Shown here: in pieces, positions 26,124 through 64,000 of the stretch
How positions within the stretch are numbered: the stretch's first letter is position 1
How the letters are laid out: each line of letters opens with the position of its first letter
Assembly (NCBI GenBank): GCA_016195985.1
Contig: JACPYP010000016.1
Span: forward strand, 310,001 to 374,000
Source: Acidobacteriota bacterium
Lineage (GTDB): Bacteria; Acidobacteriota; Holophagae; Holophagales; Holophagaceae
DNA: 64,000 bases
Reading direction: 5' to 3'
Notes under the pieces: generated by a model
Told to the model about the DNA's origin: nothing
The model's database searches: none
Seen by the model: only the letters and a program-made list of their open reading frames with translations
Translations under genes and position numbers: made by a program

Positions 26124-26299
26124 CTCCGGCCGCACGAATCACTCGACTTTCTGTCCCGGGTCCGACAGCCCCCCGGGCTGTCTGCCCCGGGCCAAAACGA
26201 AAGCCGGTGATTCTGTGATTTCGAATCCCCCACACTCCGCCTGACAGAAAAACGCCCCCGTTTCGGGGGCGCTTTTCTGGCGGAGAGTGGGGGATTCGA
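26124..26299. repeat. tRNA-Ser-tail palindromic repeat, copy B
   Basis: The second copy, whose right end is the real 3' part of the tRNA-Ser gene. The left arm 26221-26241 pairs with 26279-26299 at 20 of 21 positions, and between them lies the tRNA's own terminator, so the whole is one long palindrome centred near 26262. Confidence 0.85.
26248..26271 (-). terminator. Terminator of tRNA-Ser
   Basis: On the minus strand CGCCCCCG, an AAA loop and CGGGGGCG are followed by TTTTT. It begins seven bases after the encoded CCA. Confidence 0.8.
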
Positions 26300-26368
26300 A
26301 CCCCCGGTAAGCTTTTGACCTACACACACTTTCCAGGCGTGCTCCTTAAACCACTCGGACAACTCTCC
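26278..26368 (-). tRNA. tRNA-Ser (anticodon GGA)
   Basis: A class II tRNA of 91 bases with CCA encoded. The acceptor stem GGAGAGT pairs with ACTCTCC, the discriminator is G, the T-arm reads GGGGGTTCGAATCCCCC, the anticodon loop is CTGGAAA, and a long variable arm is present as expected for serine. It reads UCC and UCU codons. Confidence 0.95.
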
Positions 26369-52327: not shown

Positions 52328-52687
52328 CTACCGGCGTCCGTAGTCGTCCTGCAGGCGTTCGATGTCGGCTTCGTCGAAGGTGCCCAGGCTCACTTCGAGG
52401 ACCCGCACGGGGCGGGCGGCGCCAGGCTCGCTGCGCAGCCGGTGGACGCTGCCCTGGGGCAGCCAGATCTCTTCGCCCACGGAGGGGCGCAGGACCGTGC
52501 TGTCCAGATCCACCACCACGCCGGGATCCAGGGCCACCCAGAGCTCGTCGCGGTGGCTGTGGCGCTGGAGGCTCAGCTGCTGGCCGGGGTTGCAGGTGAG
52601 GATCTTCACCGTGCAGGGCGTGTTCAGGGCGTACTGATCGAAGGAGCCCCAGGGTTTGTCCACATGGAGGCTGTCGGGTTTCTGCAT
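52328..52687 (-). CDS. Cupin, type II phosphomannose isomerase-like
   Basis: A 119-residue single-domain cupin: KPWGSFDQYAL, then QLSLQRHSHRDELWVAL with two metal-binding His and the Glu-like position, and PQGSVHRLRS with the last His. This matches the C-terminal isomerase domain of ManC-type enzymes, so it may interconvert mannose 6-phosphate and fructose 6-phosphate. It is the last gene of the operon with the ROK kinase, symporter and GH92, 32 bases after the kinase gene. AGGAAG precedes the ATG. Confidence 0.87.
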   Translation of the reverse strand: MQKPDSLHVDKPWGSFDQYALNTPCTVKILTCNPGQQLSLQRHSHRDELWVALDPGVVVDLDSTVLRPSVGEEIWLPQGSVHRLRSEPGAARPVRVLEVSLGTFDEADIERLQDDYGRR

Positions 52688-52719
52688 TGTTGTCGCTTCC
52701 TGGAAAGGGGGTGTCGGGA

Positions 52720-53835
52720 TCAGGCGCTGCGGTCCAGGGCGTCGAGCGCGAAGGCGTAGGCGCCAAGCGCCACGGCGCGGCCGGCTCCCAGCTTGGAGAT
52801 GCCGATGCCGATGCGCTTCATGGGATCGTAGGGGATCAGGCGCCCGGAGCCGGGAACCACGATGTGGCGGGAGCGGCCCTTGAGGAACCGGGCCAGCTGA
52901 GCCTCGTCCTCCAGGTTGAAGGCGGCGAGTTCCGTGCGGGGGATGGGATCGCGCCCGGTGACGCTGGTGAGTTGTCCATTCAGCTCCGCCAGCAGGGCGG
53001 GCATGAAGTGCGGCCAGGCCCCGGACAGCCCGCCGCCCAGCACCACCAGACCGTCCACGAGGCTGATGGCGTTGGCGATGGCATCGCCCGCCACTTCGCC
53101 CAGCAGGCGGAAGGATTCGCAGGCGGCTCCCTGGCTGCCGGGCTGCAGCCCCTCGGCGATGGCGGCGATCTCCCGGGGGTCGGGCACCTGGTCGGTGATG
53201 CGCAGGCCCGCGCCGGTGGCGTAGGCCCGCTTCACAGCCCGGACCGATACCCCCTCTTCGGCGTAGCTGTCCCGGTGCAGCTTGTGGCGGGTGCACCAGA
53301 TCTCTCCGGCGGCGCCGTTGTCGCCCCGGAAGAGCTGGCCTTGCCGCACGATGCCGCCCCCGAAGCCCGTGCCCAGGGTGAGGCCCAGGAGGTTCTGGAA
53401 GCGCTTGGGGTTTCCCGCCGCCTCCAGTTTTCCATTGATCTCGGGCAGCAGGCCAGAGAGGGCCTCGCCGTAGGCGAAGAGATCTCCGTCGTTGTTGAGG
53501 TAGACAGGGACGCCGAAGCGATCCTCCAGCATGGGGCCCAGGGCCACGCCGCCGCGGAAGGCCGGAAGGTTCTGAAGGTCGCCGATGATGCCCGCGGCGT
53601 AATCGGCGGGGCCGGGGAACGCGAAGCTGATGGCCTGGATGGTGCCCCCCACGGCCCGGCGCTGCTGCTCGAAGCCCTCCACCAGCGTGTCGAGACAGGC
53701 CTTCAGGTCATCGGGATGGGATGGGCGGACCACCGGTTCGGCCACATCTTCGTTGCCGCGGATGGCGTGGAAGGCGAAGGTGGTGCCCCCGGCATCGAGG
53801 GTGAGAACGTGGCGGGGATCAGTGGCTGGGTTCAT
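52720..53835 (-). CDS. ROK-family sugar kinase
   Basis: A 371-residue kinase with the ATP-binding opening LTLDAGGTTFAF, the ROK signature around LGLTLGTGFGGGIV, and the catalytic region NNDGDLFAYGEA with the active-site Asp. The usual zinc motif CxCGxxGCxE is missing: the region reads IWCTRHKLHRD. Given the operon it is likely to phosphorylate mannose or fructose. It lies 33 bases after the symporter gene. ROK proteins can also be repressors, but no DNA-binding domain is present. Confidence 0.85.
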   Translation of the reverse strand: MNPATDPRHVLTLDAGGTTFAFHAIRGNEDVAEPVVRPSHPDDLKACLDTLVEGFEQQRRAVGGTIQAISFAFPGPADYAAGIIGDLQNLPAFRGGVALGPMLEDRFGVPVYLNNDGDLFAYGEALSGLLPEINGKLEAAGNPKRFQNLLGLTLGTGFGGGIVRQGQLFRGDNGAAGEIWCTRHKLHRDSYAEEGVSVRAVKRAYATGAGLRITDQVPDPREIAAIAEGLQPGSQGAACESFRLLGEVAGDAIANAISLVDGLVVLGGGLSGAWPHFMPALLAELNGQLTSVTGRDPIPRTELAAFNLEDEAQLARFLKGRSRHIVVPGSGRLIPYDPMKRIGIGISKLGAGRAVALGAYAFALDALDRSA

Positions 53836-53868
53836 GCGTGGCTCGGGAAAACGGGTCAGTCGGAAGGA

Positions 53869-55005
53869 TCACTTGGAGGAGGTGTTCTGGGCCTTGCCGC
53901 GCAGCGAAAGGACGGCCAGGTAGGCGAAGCAGGCCAGAGGCACGGCGAAGGCGAGAGGCCGCGCTCCGCCCCCCAGCCGGCCCATCAGCAGGGGCACGAT
54001 GGCGCCACCGCTGATGGCCATGCACATCAGGCCGCTGAGTTCGCTGGCCCTTTCCGGCTGGGCTTCCACGGTGATGGAAAAGAGCATGGGCCAGATGTTG
54101 GCGAAGCCCAGGCCGCCGAGCAGGACGCCGGGCAGGGCCAGGGCGCCGGACCCGGTCATGAGCATCGCCAGCCCCGCCAGTCCCAGCAGGGCGCTGATCC
54201 GGAAGAAGGCGTGGGGCTGCACCTTGATGCTGCCCGCCACCAGCCGGCCCACGGTGAGGGCGCCGAAGAACAGCGCGGGCCCTAAGAAGGCGGCCTCCTT
54301 CTCGCTGCGCCCCATGGCCTGCAGGGCCGGCTTGAGGAAGGTGCCCATGCAGACTTCGGCTCCCACGTAGAGAAAGATGCCGATGACCGCAAGGGTGAAG
54401 ACGGGTGTCTTCAACAGGGCGAGGGAGCTGCCGATGCTCGGGGGCTGGTCGGCCTTTGTCTCTTCCACCTTCAGGAAGCTGACGGCGAGCAGGGCCAGGG
54501 CCATGAGGGCGAAGAAGATGGGAAAGGCCCCGCGCCATCCCATGGCTGCGAAGAAGGCGAGGGAGGTCACCGCCGTCACGAGGTAGGCGGAAGCGCTGCT
54601 GCCCACCCCCTTGATGCCCTGGGCCAGGGCCAGGTTGCGGCTGTAGTCCCCGGCGCCGCTGACATCCCGCATGATGGGATTGCCCGCCACCTGCAACAGG
54701 GTGGTGCCCACGCCCAGCAGGAAGATGCAGGGCAGGAGGAGCGCGAAGGGCGGGTTCAGGAAGGCGGGGACGCCCACGGCCAGGGTGTTGAGGGCCAGGC
54801 CCAGGAGGAGCACCTTCTTCTTCCCGACGCGGGCCGCGAGCAGGCCGCCCGGGACGCTGAACAGCGCGAAGGCGATGAAGACGAAGAAGGGCATCAGGGC
54901 GGCCATCACGGGATTGGCCGCGACCGCGCTCGACAGGGGGCCCATGGCATCGGCGACTCCCATGAGCAGGAAGGCCAGGAAGATGGGCAGGGTCCTCAGG
55001 TTCAT
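53869..55005 (-). CDS. FHS-type sugar:H+ symporter
   Basis: A 378-residue major facilitator transporter with about twelve hydrophobic helices. The features LLGVGTTLLQVAGNPIMRDVSG and FFVFIAFALFSVPGGLLAARVGKKK match the fucose/glucose/galactose-proton symporter group. In this operon the substrate is likely to be the hexose released by GH92, that is mannose. Only 43 bases separate it from the GH92 gene upstream. Confidence 0.9.
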   Translation of the reverse strand: MNLRTLPIFLAFLLMGVADAMGPLSSAVAANPVMAALMPFFVFIAFALFSVPGGLLAARVGKKKVLLLGLALNTLAVGVPAFLNPPFALLLPCIFLLGVGTTLLQVAGNPIMRDVSGAGDYSRNLALAQGIKGVGSSASAYLVTAVTSLAFFAAMGWRGAFPIFFALMALALLAVSFLKVEETKADQPPSIGSSLALLKTPVFTLAVIGIFLYVGAEVCMGTFLKPALQAMGRSEKEAAFLGPALFFGALTVGRLVAGSIKVQPHAFFRISALLGLAGLAMLMTGSGALALPGVLLGGLGFANIWPMLFSITVEAQPERASELSGLMCMAISGGAIVPLLMGRLGGGARPLAFAVPLACFAYLAVLSLRGKAQNTSSK

Positions 55006-55048: not shown

Positions 55049-57346
55049 TCAGGGCTGGACATCACGCATGGCGCCGGGGGCCGCCTCGGGCTGGCTGGCC
55101 CAGGCCTTGTTGGGTTTGGGCCCCAGGGTGAAGACCAGCTCGCCGCCCTCGGTGATATTGGCATGGGAGAGCCAGGCCTTCGTCCAGGGTTTGCCGTTCA
55201 ACGTGGCCTTCTGGACATAGACGTTCCCGGCGGAGAATTTCTCGGCGCGCACGGTGAAGGTCCTGCCGTTGCTCAGGTGCATGGACACCTTGGGCAGCGC
55301 GGGACTGCCGATGACGTAGCGGTTGTCGCCGGGGCACATGGGGTAGAAGCCCATGGCGCTGAAGATGTACCAGGAGCTCATCTGCCCGCAATCATCGTTG
55401 CCGCAGAGGGAGCCGGGCTGGTCGCCGTACTGGGTGTCGATGAGCCTGCGCACGAGGGCCTGGGTCTTCCAGGGCTGGCCCGCCGCGGCGAAGAGGTAGG
55501 CCACGTGGTGGCTGGGCTCGTTGCCGTGCCAGTACTCGCCGATGCGGCCCTCGATGTCTTCGACGCCGGCATCGGTCCGCTTCTCATGCTCCTGGAAGAC
55601 CTCGTCCAGCTTGCGGGTGAAGGCGTCCCGGCCGCCCATGAGCCCGATGAGCCCGGGCACGTCCTGGGCCACGGACCAGGTGTACTGCCAGGTGGTGCCT
55701 TCGGTGAAGGGGCCGAGATGCTTGTACTCGAGGGGGTTGAAGGGCGTCATCCACTGGCCTTTGCTGTCCTTGGGCCGCATGAACTTCAGGCTGGGATCGT
55801 AGAGGTTCCGGTAGGACTGGGCGCGCTTCTCAAACCGCTCGGCGATGGCGGTCTTGCCCAGGCCCCGCGCCAGCCGCGCGATGCAGGCGTCATCGTAGGC
55901 GTATTCCAGCGTTTTTGAAACGCTCTCGTTTTCCAGGTCGAAGGGCACGTAGCCCAGGCGCTCGTAGTCCGCCAGGCCGTCGAAGGTGGGGTGGCTGGCG
56001 CTGGCCACGCAGGCGTCCAGCGCCTTCTCCCAGTTGATGCCGGTCATGCCCTTGGCCCAGGCGTCGACGATCACGGGCACGGCGTGGTAGCCGGGCATGC
56101 ACCAGGTCTCGTTGCTCCAGAAATGCCAGATGGGCAGCAGATGGTCGGCGCTCTGGTCGTAGGCGGCCAGCAGGGACTGGATCATGTCCCGGTCGCGGTC
56201 CGCCTGTACCAGGGTGAAGAGGGGATGGGTGGCGCGGTAGGTGTCCCAGAGGCTGAAGGTCGTGTAGTTCTGGAATCCCTTGGCCACCTTGGCCTGCTGA
56301 TCCTGGCCCCGGTACCTGCCATCGCTGTCCGTGTAGAGGTTGGGAGCCATGAAGGCGTGGTAGACGCCGCTGTAGAAGGTGGTCTTCTGGGTGTCGGTGC
56401 CCTCCACCTCGAACTTGCCCAGCTCCGCGTCCCAGGCGGCGCGCGCCTTCTGCACGTAGCTTTCGAAGGCCCAGTCGGGCATCTCCGTGTCGAGGTTGCG
56501 CAGGGCGGCTTCTTCGCTGAGGGCCGAGATGCCCACCTTCACGGAAATCTGCTCGTCCGCGGCCGTCTCGTAGTCCACCACGGCCTGCAGGTTGGCTCCG
56601 GCGCCGGAGGTGGAGCTGAGGTAGCGGTAGGACTTGAAGGAGTCGTACTTGAGCTCCTTCTTGTCGCTGAAGAGGCGCAGGCCGCCGAAGGGTTTGGAGA
56701 AGCGGGCCGCGAAGTAGACGGGGCGGTCTTTGGCCCAGCCTTTCACGAGATGCATGCCCTGGAGGGTCCGCGCGTCCACCTGGCGGACGTTGGACCAGAT
56801 CACCTTGTGCAGCAGGACGTGGGAGAGATCCAGCACCACGTGGGCATTCTTGGAGGCGGGGTAGGTGAAGCGCAGCATGCCGGCGCGGCTGGTGGCCGTG
56901 AGTTCGGCCTTCACGCCGTAGTCGTCTAGCACCACCGAGTAGTAGCCGGGCGAGGCCGATTCGCGGTCGTGGCTGAACCGGCTTTGGTAGCCCTTCTCTT
57001 TCAGGTCCTTGGCGCCGGGATCGAGCCGGGTCTCGCCCACCGTGGGCTGGAACAGGATGTCCCCCATGTCGGGAATGCCGGTGCCCGAGAGGTGCAGCAT
57101 GGAGAAGCCGAGGATGGTCTTGTCGGAGTACTCGTACCCGGATGCGGTGTTGTATTCCTTCTTGTCCGTGTCAGGGCTGAGGGCCACCATGCCGAAGGGC
57201 ACCTGGGCGCCGGGGTAGGTGTTCCCCTCGCCCTTGGTGCCCACGAAGGGGCGCACGTGTTTCGAAAGACCCGTCGGCGCCGGGACCGGAGGGGCGGCGA
57301 ATAGCGCCGCGGCGGGCAGGAGGAGGAGGGCGCGAAGCAGCTGCAT
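55049..57346 (-). CDS. GH92 exo-alpha-mannosidase (second copy)
   Basis: A 765-residue exported enzyme with signal peptide (about 1-18). It has the GH92 opening FVGTKGEGNTYPGAQVPFGMVALSPDT, LHLSGTGIPDMGDI and the barrel motif CGQMSSWYIFSAMGFYPMCPGD. It is the first gene of the operon GH92, symporter, ROK kinase, cupin, and so probably supplies the sugar to the rest. It differs from the first GH92 enough to suggest a different linkage or substrate. Confidence 0.94.
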   Translation of the reverse strand: MQLLRALLLLPAAALFAAPPVPAPTGLSKHVRPFVGTKGEGNTYPGAQVPFGMVALSPDTDKKEYNTASGYEYSDKTILGFSMLHLSGTGIPDMGDILFQPTVGETRLDPGAKDLKEKGYQSRFSHDRESASPGYYSVVLDDYGVKAELTATSRAGMLRFTYPASKNAHVVLDLSHVLLHKVIWSNVRQVDARTLQGMHLVKGWAKDRPVYFAARFSKPFGGLRLFSDKKELKYDSFKSYRYLSSTSGAGANLQAVVDYETAADEQISVKVGISALSEEAALRNLDTEMPDWAFESYVQKARAAWDAELGKFEVEGTDTQKTTFYSGVYHAFMAPNLYTDSDGRYRGQDQQAKVAKGFQNYTTFSLWDTYRATHPLFTLVQADRDRDMIQSLLAAYDQSADHLLPIWHFWSNETWCMPGYHAVPVIVDAWAKGMTGINWEKALDACVASASHPTFDGLADYERLGYVPFDLENESVSKTLEYAYDDACIARLARGLGKTAIAERFEKRAQSYRNLYDPSLKFMRPKDSKGQWMTPFNPLEYKHLGPFTEGTTWQYTWSVAQDVPGLIGLMGGRDAFTRKLDEVFQEHEKRTDAGVEDIEGRIGEYWHGNEPSHHVAYLFAAAGQPWKTQALVRRLIDTQYGDQPGSLCGNDDCGQMSSWYIFSAMGFYPMCPGDNRYVIGSPALPKVSMHLSNGRTFTVRAEKFSAGNVYVQKATLNGKPWTKAWLSHANITEGGELVFTLGPKPNKAWASQPEAAPGAMRDVQP

Positions 57347-57459
57347 GGGTGGACTCCGGGCATCGACAGGGCGATGGAGTGATCCTGAGCGCGAACCCAG
57401 CCGCGAGATAGTGTGGGCGCCCCATAGGAGTCATCAATCCCATCGATAACAGGCAGGCC

Positions 57460-58368
57460 CTAGCTTTCCTCTCCGAGCGTCAGGCCCGCCATGACCCCGC
57501 GCAGCCAGCGGTGCGACGGATCATCCTGCATCCGCAGGTGCCAGAACTGCCTCACCTGGAAGGAGGGCGATTCGAAGGGGTAGGGCACCACTTCCAGGGG
57601 GAAGGCCGCGGCCAGAGGCTCGGCGATGCGCCGGGCCAGCGTGAAGCACAGGTCCGTTTCCAACACTGCGAAGGGCGCCGACAGGAAATGGGGCACCGTC
57701 AGGCTGATGTGGCGGTCCAGGCCCAGCGTGGCCATCTGCTGGTTCACCAGGGTCGGGCCCACCAGGGCCTGGACTTCAATGTGCGAGAGCGCGAGGTAGG
57801 CCTCCTGGTCGAAGGGGCGCCGCAGGCTCGGATGGTCCTTGCGGAGGAGGCAGACCACTTCATCCTTGAAGAGGAGACGGCTCTGGAGGCCTTCGGGCGG
57901 CTGCGAATACCCGGCCAGGACGAAATCCAACTCTCCGTTGGCCAGCTCTTCCCAGGGAAAATGGTGAGAGATGGGCTGGATGACGATCTGCACGCGGGGC
58001 GCGAGCTCCTGGACGCGCCGCATCAGGGGCCCCGCCATCACGAACTGCAGGTAGTCCGTGGCGGCGAAGACGAAGATGCGGTTGGAAGCGGATGGATCGA
58101 ACTCCACAGGCTGGAGCACGTCCAGCAGTTTGGCGAGGGTGTCGTGAAGGGGCTTTTCGATGGCCAGCGCGCGCGGCGTGGGCGTGATGCCCCGGGGGGC
58201 CCTCACGAACAGCGGATCGCCGATGACTTTCCGCAACCGCGCCAACGCGCTGCTGAGCGTGGACTGGGTGGTGCCGAGGCTGATGGCCGCCTGCGTGACG
58301 TTGCGCTCTTTCAGGAGGGTGTCTAGCACCACCAGGAGATTCAGGTCGATATCCGGCAGTCGGGTCAC
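57460..58368 (-). CDS. LysR-family transcriptional regulator
   Basis: A 302-residue regulator. The N-terminal winged helix-turn-helix (about 8-68; LLKERNVTQAAISLGTTQSTLSSALARLR) is typical, with an effector domain in two lobes to the end. It lies 113 bases upstream of the GH92 operon on the same strand, divergent from the GH36-like gene. It may control the sugar locus, perhaps through the 42-bp module at 58418; that is inferred from position only. Confidence 0.93.
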   Translation of the reverse strand: MTRLPDIDLNLLVVLDTLLKERNVTQAAISLGTTQSTLSSALARLRKVIGDPLFVRAPRGITPTPRALAIEKPLHDTLAKLLDVLQPVEFDPSASNRIFVFAATDYLQFVMAGPLMRRVQELAPRVQIVIQPISHHFPWEELANGELDFVLAGYSQPPEGLQSRLLFKDEVVCLLRKDHPSLRRPFDQEAYLALSHIEVQALVGPTLVNQQMATLGLDRHISLTVPHFLSAPFAVLETDLCFTLARRIAEPLAAAFPLEVVPYPFESPSFQVRQFWHLRMQDDPSHRWLRGVMAGLTLGEES

Positions 58369-58723
58369 GGGATCCTCGGTCTGAGACTGTCATGACTGTT
58401 CAGGAGGGGCAATAGAACATCGTGGTTCACGTTATCGGTCATGGACCAAGAGATGGTTCATGCGCGGGAGCCCCAGGGTAAATTTCTCCTGCGACACCCG
58501 TCCCATTCTGAACTTCTGGATCCATCACCCAAGTGGCGCAATCGTTTGCTCCAGCACCCTCCGTCTCTCCGCGGGCATGCCGATGGTCCGCGTCGCATCC
58601 AGACCTTCTGATGTGTTTCAGATGAACCTGGAATGGACATAGGAACCCCAGGCCGAGGCTTGGACTTTCCAGGTCCGTTCCGGTCATCAAGCTTGAATTC
58701 AGTCCAGTGATGAGGTATCCACC
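58369..58723. other. Divergent intergenic region with promoter module
   Basis: Holds module S1 (58418-58459) and its -10-like element. The remaining 240 bases form a leader for the GH36-like gene. A 60-codon frame from 58460 has no ribosome-binding site and is not called. Confidence 0.55.
58418..58484 (+). promoter_or_regulatory. 42-bp promoter/operator module S1
   Basis: The module CATCG...ATGGACCA-N5-TGGTTC spans 58418-58459 and is followed after 19 bases by TAAATT (58479-58484). It contains the inverted pair ACCA/TGGT. Hand alignment of S1, S2 and S3 gives 26 of 42 positions identical in all three. It faces the GH36-like gene. Confidence 0.7.
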
Positions 58724-60397
58724 ATGCCCATGTCTCTTGGCCAATCGATTCAAAGGGGGCGCGTGCTTCGCGGGATTCTGTCTCTGCTTCTGGGCGCCTG
58801 CTCGACACTGTGTCTGGCGGATAAGCCCAAGGAGAGGGGCCCATCGGCCTATCTGAACCTGCTGCGCCCGCCGGACCGGATCACCCTCGTCACCGAATCG
58901 GGATCCTCCCCTCTCGTTCAGACGGAGCCGGGCCATTGGAAGCGGGGGGACACCCTGCTGCGCACCCAGGTCAAGGGCGGCGGGCTTCAGGTCAGCCTCT
59001 CGTCTCCCACCGAACCGGTGAAGCATGTCCAGCTCTGGTGGAAGGTCCGGATCGATCCTTCGTGGAACCTGCTGGGAGACGCCTGGGAGCGGGCCTACGG
59101 TGATCTTCAGTGGGCGAAGCCCGACCCCCGCCGGGTGATGCCCTGGTACTTTCTCGCCTCGGATGGACAGTGCGTCCATGGCTACGGAGTGATGACCGGA
59201 CCCTCCGCGCTCTGCGCTTGGAAGACAGAAGAGGACGGCATCAGCCTATGGGCCGATGTCCGCTGCGGCGGCATGGGGGTGCGGCTGGGTTCTCGGCGCC
59301 TTCCGCTCTGCACGGTGGTCAGCCGGGAAGGGAGGCTGGGGGAGTCCGCCTTCCAGGCGGCTCAAGCCTTCTGCCGAATGATGTGCCCCAGGCCCAGGCT
59401 TCCCAAGGAACCTGTGTACGGGTTCAACGATTGGTACTACGCCTACGGGAAAAACACCGCCGAGGGGATTCTGGAAGACGCCGCATTGACGGCTTCGATT
59501 TCTCCCAGGGGCGGCCCTCGACCGTTCATGGTCATCGACGATGGCTGGCAGGGCGATCCCGAGGCCGGGCCCAGGCCGTGGAAGGCAGGCAATGCCAAAT
59601 TCCCGTCGATGCCGAAACTCGCGGCGGACATTCGCAAGGCTGGCTGTCTTCCGGGCATCTGGTACCGCCCCCTGGAAGCGGCGAAGGAGGATCCGGGCCC
59701 TTGGCGCCTGAGCCGCCGCCCTGGCGTGCTCGATCCCACCCTTCCCGATGTCCGCAGCCAGATCGCTGGGGAAGTGAGGCGCTTGCGCCAATGGGGTTTC
59801 GCGCTCATCAAGCATGACTTCACGACCTACGACCTCACCGGCAGGTGGGGCTTCCAAATGGGAGATGGCTTCACCAGGGATGGTTGGTCCTTCGCGAACC
59901 GCTCCATGACCACGGCCGAAGTGATTCTGGACCTGTACCGCTGCATCCGGGAGGCCTCGGGCGATGCCATCGTCATCGGCTGCAACACCGTCAGCCATCT
60001 GTCGGCGGGAATCTTCGAGGTCAATCGCATCGGCGACGACACCAGCGGGAAGGAATGGGACCGCACGCGGAAGATGGGTGTGAACTGCCTGGCTTTCCGG
60101 GCCCCGCAGCAGGGGACCTTCTACCTGGCCGATCCTGACTGCATGGGCCTCGCAGAGGCGGGCGCCATTCCCTGGGAAAAGAACCGCCAGTGGCTGGACC
60201 TGGCCGCGCGGAGCGGAATGCCCCTTTTCATTTCGGTTCGAAGGGGGGCCCTCGACCCGGACCAGATGCAGGCCCTCCGTGAGGCCATGGCCATCGCCGC
60301 CCGGCCTCAACCTGTGGCCGAGCCCCTGGATTGGATGGAAACCCTCCGTCCAAGGCGCTGGAAACTGATGGGGAAGACCGCTGAATTCGAATGGTGA
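58724..60397 (+). CDS. GH36-like alpha-galactosidase, probable lipoprotein
   Basis: A 557-residue exported protein with a lipobox-like LLLGAC near residue 26, so it may be lipid-anchored. A beta-rich N-terminal domain leads to a TIM barrel of clan GH-D: FMVIDDGWQ, nucleophile candidate Asp365 in LIKHDFTTYD, and acid/base candidate Asp438 or Asp439 in RIGDDTSG. Alpha-galactosidase is most likely, but GH31 or GH27 relatives cannot be excluded. It would act outside the cytoplasm. A GAGG lies upstream of MPMSLG; the second ATG (58730) is a possible start. Confidence 0.78.
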   Translation: MPMSLGQSIQRGRVLRGILSLLLGACSTLCLADKPKERGPSAYLNLLRPPDRITLVTESGSSPLVQTEPGHWKRGDTLLRTQVKGGGLQVSLSSPTEPVKHVQLWWKVRIDPSWNLLGDAWERAYGDLQWAKPDPRRVMPWYFLASDGQCVHGYGVMTGPSALCAWKTEEDGISLWADVRCGGMGVRLGSRRLPLCTVVSREGRLGESAFQAAQAFCRMMCPRPRLPKEPVYGFNDWYYAYGKNTAEGILEDAALTASISPRGGPRPFMVIDDGWQGDPEAGPRPWKAGNAKFPSMPKLAADIRKAGCLPGIWYRPLEAAKEDPGPWRLSRRPGVLDPTLPDVRSQIAGEVRRLRQWGFALIKHDFTTYDLTGRWGFQMGDGFTRDGWSFANRSMTTAEVILDLYRCIREASGDAIVIGCNTVSHLSAGIFEVNRIGDDTSGKEWDRTRKMGVNCLAFRAPQQGTFYLADPDCMGLAEAGAIPWEKNRQWLDLAARSGMPLFISVRRGALDPDQMQALREAMAIAARPQPVAEPLDWMETLRPRRWKLMGKTAEFEW

Positions 60398-60427
60398 TTC
60401 CCTTCAACGGTGACATTCGCCGTAAAT

Positions 60428-60494
60428 CATCGATTTCAACGGTAATCGATATGGACCATTAGATGGTTCGGGTGCTGGAACCTCCGCGCAGAAT
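60428..60494 (+). promoter_or_regulatory. 42-bp promoter/operator module S2
   Basis: The module at 60428-60469 is followed after 19 bases by CAGAAT (60489-60494), inside the nonamer GCAGAATGC. The inverted pair ACCAT/ATGGT is best here (ACCATTAGATGGT). It faces the beta-barrel/TonB receptor pair. Confidence 0.7.
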
Positions 60495-60618
60495 GCTTCC
60501 AAGCTGGGATGGCGAGGCCCAGCCAGGTGTTTCCACTCACCCCAAATTCGCCAAGAATCAGCCCGAACGGCCACACCCTGGAGCTGAGACTGCCAAGCAT
60601 TCCGGAGCCGATCCATGT

Positions 60619-60685
60619 CATCGATTTACGCGTTATTGGGTATGGATCAATAGCTGGTTCGGCCGCGGAAACCCCCATGCAGAAT
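60619..60685 (+). promoter_or_regulatory. 42-bp promoter/operator module S3
   Basis: The module at 60619-60660 is followed after 19 bases by CAGAAT (60680-60685), again as GCAGAATGC. It differs from S2 at 11 of the first 44 positions. Its end is 137 bases before the beta-barrel gene. Confidence 0.7.
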
Positions 60686-60821
60686 GCATAGAAACAAGCT
60701 CTTAATTCTTTAATCATTCCCTTCAACCCCACCAGGCGACTCAGGCACCTCCGGCTGGCCTTAGCTGGACCAGAGAGGCTCTGTCTACGCTTTGGGAAAC
60801 GCAAGTAATAGGAGGATATGC

Positions 60822-61532
60822 ATGAATGTAAAAATCATCCGCAATATCGGGTTGGGCCTCGGATTTCTGGCGGCCGCCCATCATGCCCAGGCGCAGGAAG
60901 CGGGGCCCTTCTATGGGCTGAAGCTGCGGACGGCGGTCCAGGCCTCGGAGCACAAGGACGCCCTCAAGGGGTACTACCTGGGGTTCGGCGTGGAAGCCGG
61001 CTACCAGAACGATCTGGGGCGCTGGGGGGCTGAACTGGGCCTCCTCTACAAACCTGGGGGTTTTTACGGCGCGGATGTGTCCGCCATCGGATCGGCTTCC
61101 GCCATCAAGGTGGACCCGGCCCGTTCCGTGGACATGCGGAAGGGGCAGGTCGACACATTGGCCCTGCGCCTTTCTTATGAGAAGCCCTGGAACGGCGTGG
61201 GCCTCCGCGCCGGGCTCCAGATCGGCAAGGCCAAGTTCCGCGAAGAGTACATCGGCGATGTCACCGGGACGGATGGTTCGTACCGCGATGCCTACAACGG
61301 TGTGATCGAGAAGAGCGCCTTGGCGGTGAGTCCCTACGTCGGCGTTTCCTTCCCTGTGATGAAGGACCAGTTCCTGGAAGTTCAGCTGGTGGGCCTCAGC
61401 TACACCTCGGCGACCTATGTGCACGTGGCCGGCACGGCCGCGGGCCAGGGGACGCACAACTCGAAGGATTCCGTGAGCACGGCCACCCGCATGATGCCGC
61501 ACCTCGAACTGGCCTACGCCATCCGCTTCTAA
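60822..61532 (+). CDS. Small outer-membrane beta-barrel protein
   Basis: A 236-residue exported protein with a signal peptide (about 1-25, ending AQA) and alternating strands ending in AYAIRF, as in outer-membrane barrels (opening FYGLKLRTAVQ, GYYLGFGVEAGYQ). The exact family is not clear. AGGAGG six bases before ATG 60822 fixes the start. It lies 24 bases before the TonB receptor gene and is probably cotranscribed with it from S2 or S3. Confidence 0.7.
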   Translation: MNVKIIRNIGLGLGFLAAAHHAQAQEAGPFYGLKLRTAVQASEHKDALKGYYLGFGVEAGYQNDLGRWGAELGLLYKPGGFYGADVSAIGSASAIKVDPARSVDMRKGQVDTLALRLSYEKPWNGVGLRAGLQIGKAKFREEYIGDVTGTDGSYRDAYNGVIEKSALAVSPYVGVSFPVMKDQFLEVQLVGLSYTSATYVHVAGTAAGQGTHNSKDSVSTATRMMPHLELAYAIRF

Positions 61533-61556: not shown

Positions 61557-64000
61557 ATGAAGTTTCGCAACTTAACCTTGGGGATCACGTCCCTGACCAT
61601 GTTGCTGGCGGCGCAGGCGCTTTCGGCGCAGGCCTCCAACAATGGCATCCTGCGCGGGGTGGTCAAGGATGAGACAGGCGCGCCGGTGGCGAATGCGCTG
61701 GTGAGCCTTTCCGCTCCCCAGCTCATGGGCATCCGCCGCATCACCACTGACGCCTCAGGCGGCTGGAACGCGGCCCTGCTCCCGCCTGGAGACTATAAGA
61801 TCACAGCCACCTGTGACGGGTTCGTCGGCTCCTCGGCCCAGAACGTCCACGTGGGTCCTGGCTCCCAGATGTTCCAGTCCCTCGTCATCAAGCACACGTC
61901 CGCCGCCGCGGCGACCGTGATCGTGCTGGGGTCGAGCTCGGACGTGGACAAGACCGAAGCCCAGGTGGTCTCCACCTTCACCGCCGACGAGCTGCTCCAG
62001 ACCTCCGGTGGACGCGACATCAACGCGGCCCTCCGCATGGTCCCAGGCGCCACGCCCACCCAGATGGGGCTGCCTTCCTTCCGCGGCGCCTCGGTGGAAG
62101 CCACGCAGTACACCCTGAACGGCGTGGACATCAAGGATCCCATTTACAACCAGCCCACCGGCGACTTCTTCATCGAGGACAACGTCGAGGACATCGCCGT
62201 GGTCCTGTCGCCCCTCAACGCGAAATTCGGCCGCGCCCTCGGCGGCGGCGTCAACGTCGTCACCAAATCCGGCGGCAACGATTTCGCCGGATCGATCCGG
62301 GCCACCTACTCGCGTCCCTCCTACCGGGCCACGGACTACCGGCAGCAGGCCACCGGCACATCGGAGGGCCTGACCCGGCAGTGGTACATCACACTCATGG
62401 GCCCCATCGTCAAGGACAAGCTCTGGTTCAACTACGCCACCCAGCTGAGGCCGGATACCCAGGCTTATGGAACGGTGGGGACCCTCGACAAGTCCGTGAT
62501 GAATGTCCAGAGGACCGGCAACCCACTGATCGACGGCCTGACCGCCATCGACCCCAATACGCTCATGGCGCGTTCGACGGCCGCTTCGCAGATCCAGGGC
62601 TACGGCATGCCCAAGACCGACGCGGGCGCGCAGTACAGCCAGACGACCAAGTACGCGTACAACGAAGGGAAGCTGTCCTGGGCCATCACGCAGGACCAGC
62701 GGCTGCAGATCATGGGTTCCAAGGGCGAATGGACCTACGGCGGCCAGCTGGACGGCGACGACTACTTCCTGGCAGGCCGCAGTCCTTCCAAGGAAACCCA
62801 CGAATCGGCGGGCTTCAACTACACCGCGACCTTCGGCTCGACCACGTTCCTGGAGGTCACCGGAAACACCTCCAGCAACAAGTTCAAGCAGAACTCCGGC
62901 AAGCTGGGCAGGGACCCGCTCAACAATCCCGTCCGGGCCTACGTGGACGCCTTTGACAACGCTCCCGACCCCAGCCACGTGTATGGCGTCGACCTCCTGG
63001 TGGGCGGCACGGGACGCGGCAACCCGTCGGAGAATTTCGGTTCCAAGAGCCTGAACGGAAACGTGAAGCTCTACCGCGAATTCTGGGGCCTCCAGCACGA
63101 CATCGACATGGGCGCCGAGTGGTACCGCACCCACGTGTATTCCTCCTCCTACCTGGGGTCGAACCACACCCAGTTCTACGTGGGCGGCTGGTACGCCAAG
63201 GGCGGTTCCTACGATGGCGACTGGCTGTTCCCCACCATCGTCTACAGCAGAGGCGCGGGCGGCCAGGATGTGAACGGCCAGAACGGGAACGTCGGCCTGG
63301 CTCCCGTGATGCTCCGCGCCTACGACGATGACGGACTCTCCCAGAACACGAACCTCTCCTTCTGGCTCAACGACCAGATCACCGTGAACCCCAAGCTGAA
63401 TGTCATGGTGGGCCTTCGCGTGGACCGCACGTCCTCGAAAGACGGAAAGACCGGTCTGGACATCCTCGATCCTGTCACGGGCCTGAGCCCGCGCCTGGTC
63501 CTCACCTTCGATCCGAGGGGCGACGCCAAGCACGTGTTCAAGCTTTCCGCCGCCCGGTACCAGGATGCGTTCCCCGCCGATCTCACCAATTCGATGTTCC
63601 GGAAGGCGGAGAGCCACCTCGCCACCCTGGGCTGGACAGGGCAGAACCAGCCGGCAGCGGGTGATCCCTCGGATCCATTGCATGGCGTGCGATTCGTGGA
63701 TTACGCCGCCCTCACCAATCCGGACAACTACCGGTACCCCATCAGCATGACCAACACCATCGCGGGAACGGTCAACCAGCCGGGCCTGAAGCCCCAGAGC
63801 AACATCGAGTACTCGCTGGAATACCGCCGGGCGCTGGACAACGGCTCGTGGGTCAAGTTGACCTACGTCAACAAGTCCTACCAGAACTGCATTGCCTTCT
63901 CGCGGCAGTGGGGCACGGGCTACGATGAGCGGGTGCTGATCTCCGATTTCACCGGAACCGGCTTGCCTCCCCTGTATACCCAGGTGCGGTACGCCTTCAA
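61557..64000 (+). CDS. TonB-dependent receptor, Oar-like (cut by window end)
   Basis: The first 814 residues of a receptor whose end lies outside the window. A signal peptide (about 1-26) is followed by a carboxypeptidase-regulatory-like domain (GILRGVVKDETGAPVANALV, about 30-110), a plug (about 120-240; LRMVPGATPTQMG) and much of the barrel. It is likely to take up the glycan or oligosaccharide that the neighbouring glycosidases release. The ATG follows CGAGG. It resembles the receptor at 62-3214 in layout but is clearly different in sequence. Confidence 0.92.
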   Translation, partial: MKFRNLTLGITSLTMLLAAQALSAQASNNGILRGVVKDETGAPVANALVSLSAPQLMGIRRITTDASGGWNAALLPPGDYKITATCDGFVGSSAQNVHVGPGSQMFQSLVIKHTSAAAATVIVLGSSSDVDKTEAQVVSTFTADELLQTSGGRDINAALRMVPGATPTQMGLPSFRGASVEATQYTLNGVDIKDPIYNQPTGDFFIEDNVEDIAVVLSPLNAKFGRALGGGVNVVTKSGGNDFAGSIRATYSRPSYRATDYRQQATGTSEGLTRQWYITLMGPIVKDKLWFNYATQLRPDTQAYGTVGTLDKSVMNVQRTGNPLIDGLTAIDPNTLMARSTAASQIQGYGMPKTDAGAQYSQTTKYAYNEGKLSWAITQDQRLQIMGSKGEWTYGGQLDGDDYFLAGRSPSKETHESAGFNYTATFGSTTFLEVTGNTSSNKFKQNSGKLGRDPLNNPVRAYVDAFDNAPDPSHVYGVDLLVGGTGRGNPSENFGSKSLNGNVKLYREFWGLQHDIDMGAEWYRTHVYSSSYLGSNHTQFYVGGWYAKGGSYDGDWLFPTIVYSRGAGGQDVNGQNGNVGLAPVMLRAYDDDGLSQNTNLSFWLNDQITVNPKLNVMVGLRVDRTSSKDGKTGLDILDPVTGLSPRLVLTFDPRGDAKHVFKLSAARYQDAFPADLTNSMFRKAESHLATLGWTGQNQPAAGDPSDPLHGVRFVDYAALTNPDNYRYPISMTNTIAGTVNQPGLKPQSNIEYSLEYRRALDNGSWVKLTYVNKSYQNCIAFSRQWGTGYDERVLISDFTGTGLPPLYTQVRYAF

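Follow-up and report, generated by a model that had tools for sequence, protein, structure and literature searches.

The Locus and Its Genes

The window, that is, the whole stretch of DNA analyzed here, comprises 64,000 nucleotides of an Acidobacteriota genome. Near its right end, a LysR-type regulator gene stands divergent from three copies of a repeated noncoding module, termed S1, S2, and S3, and from the genes that follow them (Table 1). Much of what is said below comes from comparison with G033, a related genome of the same family.

Table 1. Positions of the genes and modules at the locus, numbered from the first letter of the window.
Feature	Position	Strand	Remarks
MFS sugar permease, ROK kinase, and mannose-6-phosphate isomerase-type cupin genes	52328–55005	−	Cupin start 52690 chosen
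GH92 alpha-mannosidase-family gene	55049–57346	−	Downstream of the LysR gene, same strand
LysR-type regulator gene, DntR/BsrA/LeuO-like	57460–58368	−	HTH_1 and LysR_substrate; divergent from S1; proposed regulator
Module S1	58418–58486	+	69 bp, in the gap between the divergent LysR and GH36-like genes; −10-like TAAATT at 58479–58484
GH36-like (alpha-galactosidase-like) hydrolase gene	58724–60397	+	Not at the G033 locus
Module S2	60428–60496	+	69 bp, upstream copy before the barrel/TonB genes; −10-like CAGAAT at 60489–60494
Module S3	60619–60687	+	69 bp, proximal copy before the barrel/TonB genes; −10-like CAGAAT at 60680–60685
Outer-membrane beta-barrel gene	60822–61532	+	OMP_b-brl 25.6 bits vs. 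Pfam cut-off of 28.7; 90% identical in G033
TonB-dependent receptor gene	61557–63998	+	CarboxypepD_reg and Plug; continues beyond the window end

The cluster holds two GH92 genes beside the permease, kinase, cupin, GH36-like, barrel, and TonB receptor genes. This predicted content suggests that the cluster takes up and degrades a glycan that contains mannose and perhaps galactose. The MFS, ROK, and cupin genes perhaps form one leftward operon with the LysR and GH92 genes. The GH36-like protein belongs to no Pfam or NCBIfam family at 0.001, and it matches alpha-galactosidases in the PDB with a best E of 2e-5. None of the other 76 family genomes, including G033, contains a match to its gene at E up to 0.001, although relatives with 44–55% identity occur in 15 of the 395 other genomes sampled from the phylum. 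The GC3 of this gene is 0.79, against 0.83–0.93 in eight neighbouring genes that were measured. The sole Rfam match at the gathering score in the window is a tRNA gene on the minus strand (26281–26368).

In the LysR protein, both PF00126 (HTH_1) and PF03466 (LysR substrate-binding) score above the cut-off. Residues 4–294 of 302 align to PDB entry 2uyf (E 1.4e-50), which was deposited as REGULATORY PROTEIN and which we take to be DntR. The closest NCBIfam models are BsrA and LeuO, and the protein stays far below both cut-offs. With the BsrA model, it reaches 196.7 bits against a curated cut-off of 480, which is short of an equivalog assignment.

A Repeated Module of 69 bp

A preliminary description of this DNA reported three copies of a 42-bp module that share a single orientation and 26 of 42 positions. 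These positions, the orientation, and the three-way identity are correct. Over 42 columns, 12 Markov shuffles of both intergenic stretches gave three-way matches of 13–15 at best. The step of exactly 19 bases from TGGTTC (58454, 60464, and 60655) to TAAATT in S1 and to CAGAAT in S2 and S3 was likewise recovered. The repeated module is therefore a real observation, but its length was underestimated: the likeness extends over 69 bp and passes through the −10-like element. The module runs from CATCG to CAGAATGC, or to the equivalent in S1; S2, S3, and both copies in G033 all terminate in this way.

Pairwise identities among the three copies are 44, 46, and 52 of 69; elsewhere in the window, no stretch matches a copy at more than 35 of 69 positions. 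Outside the module, the likeness is lost. The 25-base flanks of copies without positional correspondence are identical at 5–10 positions, so that the likeness is confined to the 69 bp, whereas the flanks of S2 and S3 agree with those of their G033 counterparts at 10–21 of 25 positions.

Distribution of the Module and of the LysR Gene

The module does not occur at random in the coding DNA of the window, where the next score of the 42-mer matrix is 1.9 bits, compared with 64–69 bits for the modules. When up to one mismatch is allowed, ACCA-N5-TGGTTC has 14 matches on the two strands of the window, five in modules and nine elsewhere, with 2.9 expected, so it is not specific by itself. A 19-bp core has three exact matches in the source genome and five further places, each with two mismatches; its reversed control has five matches.

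A sequence-only profile of the 69 bp was searched against 77 family genomes and against 93 class genomes that include the family. It finds three sites in the source genome and two in G033, and the other 91 class genomes contain no match at E up to 0.001. The five sites score 63–74 bits, compared with 17 bits for the family's next match. As the profile was derived from the five, their scores follow by construction, and its information lies in the absence of other sites. A further 85 family matches, with E from 0.013 to 10, were taken as chance; the stricter filters applied to more than 40 genomes can lose weak matches. A genome-wide regulon was considered and rejected, as the module is not spread over the genome.

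When a 31-base pattern was run against a genome collection, three records matched, from Ligilactobacillus, Romboutsia, and Erysipelotrichaceae. These matches are taken as chance, against a rough, uncomputed expectation of about two. In 69 sources, among them the window and loci where the barrel, GH36-like, and LysR genes have relatives, the profile finds only the three window sites and one weak match (14.9 bits, E 0.0093). The weak match lies at locus L099, which was itself brought in by the 31-base pattern scan. After this search, the idea that other relatives of the barrel, GH36-like, or LysR genes carry the module was rejected. The module is local, at one locus that is common to two related genomes among those searched.

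The LysR gene shares this narrow distribution. Its counterpart in G033 is 97% identical, and the other 75 family genomes have remote relatives only; the next family match by score is 33% identical, and the others among the matches listed, at E up to 1e-30, are 30–37% identical. In the phylum, matches at 1e-50 are found in 2 of 396 genomes, the source and G033, among the matches listed and with at most five candidates scored per genome. A search for related loci with the LysR protein, from which genomes very near that of the window may be left out, yielded 29 pattern matches but did not find any relative. The same divergent LysR gene has a module in the gap beside it in both genomes, 48 bp from the gene start for the first copy in G033 and 50 bp for S1. 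Such a shared distribution is expected if regulator and module belong together, but it is also expected if the locus travels as a whole. Regulator and module occur side by side in just two close genomes, which share the entire locus, so their co-occurrence is not independent evidence for the link.

Comparison with the Related Genome

The neighbourhood in G033 is approximately 86–89% identical over three long blocks, and the gene order is the same, with the LysR, GH92, MFS, and ROK genes on one side and the barrel and TonB genes on the other. The gap between the LysR and barrel genes in G033 contains two modules 194 bp apart, and S2 and S3 are spaced by 191 bp. The doubling therefore predates the split of the two genomes. 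In blastn comparisons, the G033 block that contains the first module aligns to the window from 60423 onward, that is, with S2, and window positions 58378–60422, which hold S1 and the GH36-like gene, have no counterpart.

The first G033 copy is mixed in character. In ungapped comparison, module positions 1–28 contain seven S1-like and three S2-like diagnostic sites, and positions 29–69 contain three and nine, respectively. The right flank is S2-like (3 vs. 20), and the left flank is even (9 vs. 10). The GH36-like gene and one module were thus either inserted in the source genome or deleted in G033. That this happened by recombination between modules is only suggested by the sequences, and the break point cannot be placed. 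Beyond the TonB/OMP genes, G033 has long open reading frames that, judged from their translations alone, are like phage tail or similar structural genes (L056:21-5126). The source genome differs from G033 in this DNA, so the locus may border a variable region.

S3 stands out in conservation between the two genomes, with 63 of 69 positions identical, and is the best-kept piece of the compared intergenic region. The leader that follows it has 102 of 122. S2 (51 of 69) is conserved no better than its surroundings, such as the spacer (90 of 125). Constraint shows more strongly in the likeness of S2 to S3 over exactly these 69 bp, which their flanks do not share, although the pair is older than the split of the genomes.

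Promoter Anatomy

If CAGAAT is taken as the −10 element, the module reaches from about −73 to −5, with TGGTTC at −37 to −32. TGGTTC had been described as −35-like. It is present in S1, S2, and S3, but it makes a poor −35 element, since it lies 19 bases from the −10-like element and reads TGGATC in one G033 copy. A scan of positions 57300–61000 for the sigma-70 consensus (TTGACA/TATAAT-like, 16–18 bases apart) found none, with 0.5 expected in shuffles. The modules are thus predicted to carry a weak sigma-70-type −10-like element and no good −35 element. In S1, the −10-like element ends 240 bp before the start codon of the GH36-like gene, which leaves a long leader.

The inverted pair ACCA-N5-TGGT of the preliminary description is exact in S1 and S2, but S3 reads ATCA-N5-TGGT, and neither G033 copy has the pair. 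Across the five copies, dyads are no better than in column shuffles (P 0.95 for the best dyad and 0.62 for the top three), so the palindrome is weaker than was stated. A small dyad, A-CG-N7-CG-T, is centred at −65, and three of its pairs are complementary in all five copies. A restricted control gives P 0.038 for this dyad, uncorrected and from a test chosen after the dyad had been seen. This dyad reads T-N11-T or T-N11-G, and the T-N11-A common to all five copies sits at −58/−46. Two overlapping dyads, with centres at −40 and −27.5, share TGGTTC. Additionally, a scan for direct repeats, run with no shuffle control, gives a 12-base repeat, ATGGA...ATGGT.

Proposed Regulation by the Neighbouring LysR Protein

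According to PMC8407307, promoters of LysR-type transcriptional regulators (LTTRs) span 50–60 bp, the recognition site being near −65 and the activation site at −35/−10. PMC3180648 describes overlapping divergent promoters with autorepression. In PMC11739112, two alternative activation sites, with and without effector, are given for LTTR promoters in general and are not assigned for YhaJ itself. The module, from about −73 to −5, would fit the layout described in PMC8407307 and PMC3180648.

The chances are somewhat better than even that each module is a complete promoter regulated by the neighbouring LysR protein, which is its most likely binder. In each 69-bp module, an activator-binding region would pass straight into a weak sigma-70-type −10 element. 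One LysR dimer would anchor near −65, and a second would reach the −35 region at TGGTTC. The protein would recruit RNA polymerase upon binding an inducer derived from a mannoside or galactoside. We infer this mechanism from the layout and not from symmetry, because the dyads do not exceed those of shuffles and a strict T-N11-A is not found at −65. LysR binding, the start points of transcription, a role as activator and not repressor, and the nature of the inducer are inferred as well.

In the divergent gap, S1 would drive the GH36-like gene rightward and, leftward, would serve LysR autoregulation together with the LysR-GH92-MFS-ROK-isomerase genes. The divergent LysR-GH92 genes are probably also controlled by the module. 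The leftward gaps from the LysR gene on are 113, 43, 33, and 29 bp with the chosen cupin start, and these genes could thus also be transcribed from a promoter near S1. S2 and S3 would act as tandem regulated promoters for the barrel/TonB genes. The doubled site may allow for cooperative binding or for two start points, as the preliminary description proposed.

Alternative Explanations

It is possible, though rather unlikely, that the modules are regulated promoters bound by another regulator, such as a LacI-family protein or one encoded elsewhere. Sugar genes are often under LacI-type control, and ACCA-N5-TGGT resembles a generic pair of operator half-sites. A gene named LacI-like from its sequence by eye (G000:C26:381467-382546; L105:8465-9547) lies to the right of the window, approximately 11 kb right of S3 and among further sugar-related genes of the same region, and it has a 94% relative in G033. 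This gene is the main rival to the LysR gene as regulator. However, in G033 approximately 2.7 Mb of the contig separate this relative from the locus, and both modules of G033, its only two, are found at the LysR locus. The LysR gene remains beside the module in both genomes.

A further reading, which is improbable, keeps the LysR protein as regulator and makes the module a switch and a recombination seam at once. A tetramer at −65 would slide between a silent and an active register, and the TGGTTC shared by the −40 and −27.5 dyads would allow one tetramer to make this change. Genes would be exchanged promoter to promoter. Since one 69-bp promoter heads the units on the right side, a gene like the GH36-like one could enter or leave the cluster and, on entry, would be under the right control at once.

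The preliminary description proposed either one dedicated regulator or an unusual sigma factor. The first proposal agrees with a module found only at the LysR locus in two genomes, but the second is not supported. The weak −35 element, a GGAACC-like stretch at module positions 50–55, and the fixed spacing to CAGAAT could point to an alternative sigma factor, either ECF or sigma-54. Nevertheless, the module is present at this locus only. In a search for the Sigma70_r2 family, the nearest such gene is approximately 80 kb off in G033 and approximately 340 kb off in the source genome. The sigma-54 pattern GG-N10-GC occurs in two of the five copies, and in the alignment, judged by eye, nothing is conserved at the −10 distance behind GGAACC. 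Promoters of this kind are very improbable here.

The chance that the module acts as a leader-RNA element or a minimal open reading frame is equally slight. A 3-codon frame, ATG-GAY-NNN-TAR, is found in four of the five copies, namely S2 (60451–60462), S3 (60642–60653), and both G033 copies, but not in S1. An RNA hairpin, TGGACCA/TGGTTCG, can be drawn, and RNAalifold gives 15 pairs, two of which differ at both bases in one or more sequences; its covariation term is +0.32, which is unfavourable, and the hairpin was rejected on this ground. A known RNA family was rejected on Rfam gathering scores, which no family reaches at the modules. Additionally, only 50 bp between S1 and the LysR start are left to fit another promoter. 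In the G033 counterpart of S3, TAG is replaced by TAA, which retains the stop of the 3-codon frame; the frame itself is probably due to chance.

The least probable explanation is a small repeated or mobile sequence without a regulatory role, copied as the GH36-like gene arrived: S1 and S2 do flank this gene, S1 and the gene lie in DNA without a counterpart in G033, and the first G033 copy is S1-like on its left and S2-like on its right, but the source genome has just three copies, all in one orientation and before genes, their positions relative to the LysR and barrel genes are kept in both genomes, and S3 is the best-conserved intergenic piece.

Comparison with Known Systems

Most likely, the neighbouring LysR protein uses the module as its operator and promoter, an arrangement of an ordinary and already known kind. 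If this is true, a glycan-uptake cluster would have a defined operator and a named regulator. The gain or loss of the GH36-like gene within promoter bounds would be a small, testable example of a gene joining a regulon. A search of one open-licence library found no paper that treats LysR, GH92, TonB-dependent, and regulon together.

The cluster is like polysaccharide-utilization loci in that it brings together a barrel and a TonB receptor, two GH92 genes, and the GH36-like, MFS, ROK, and isomerase-type cupin genes. It is unlike them in that its local regulator is of the LysR type and in that no SusD or hybrid two-component protein is present among nine proteins scanned.

The LysR protein is like the presumed DntR of 2uyf, to which it aligns over nearly its full length. 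The promoters of DntR/NagR/NahR-type LTTRs, as described in PMC3180648 and PMC8407307, share with this locus a divergent regulator gene, a site in the shared gap, and a conserved region that extends to −35/−10. Here, in contrast, the module occurs in three copies, T-N11-A is not centred at −65, and binding by the LysR protein is predicted. BsrA (PA2121) of Pseudomonas aeruginosa is the best NCBIfam match of the LysR protein, at 196.7 bits. It differs in its reach: according to PMC8407307, BsrA binds 765 regions through a loose T-N11-A motif, whereas the module described here is long and local. The DntR/NagR/NahR systems also concern aromatic compounds, and the present cluster concerns glycans and outer-membrane uptake, so that, if the proposed regulation is true, a DntR/BsrA-type LysR protein would be tied to glycan rather than aromatic metabolism.
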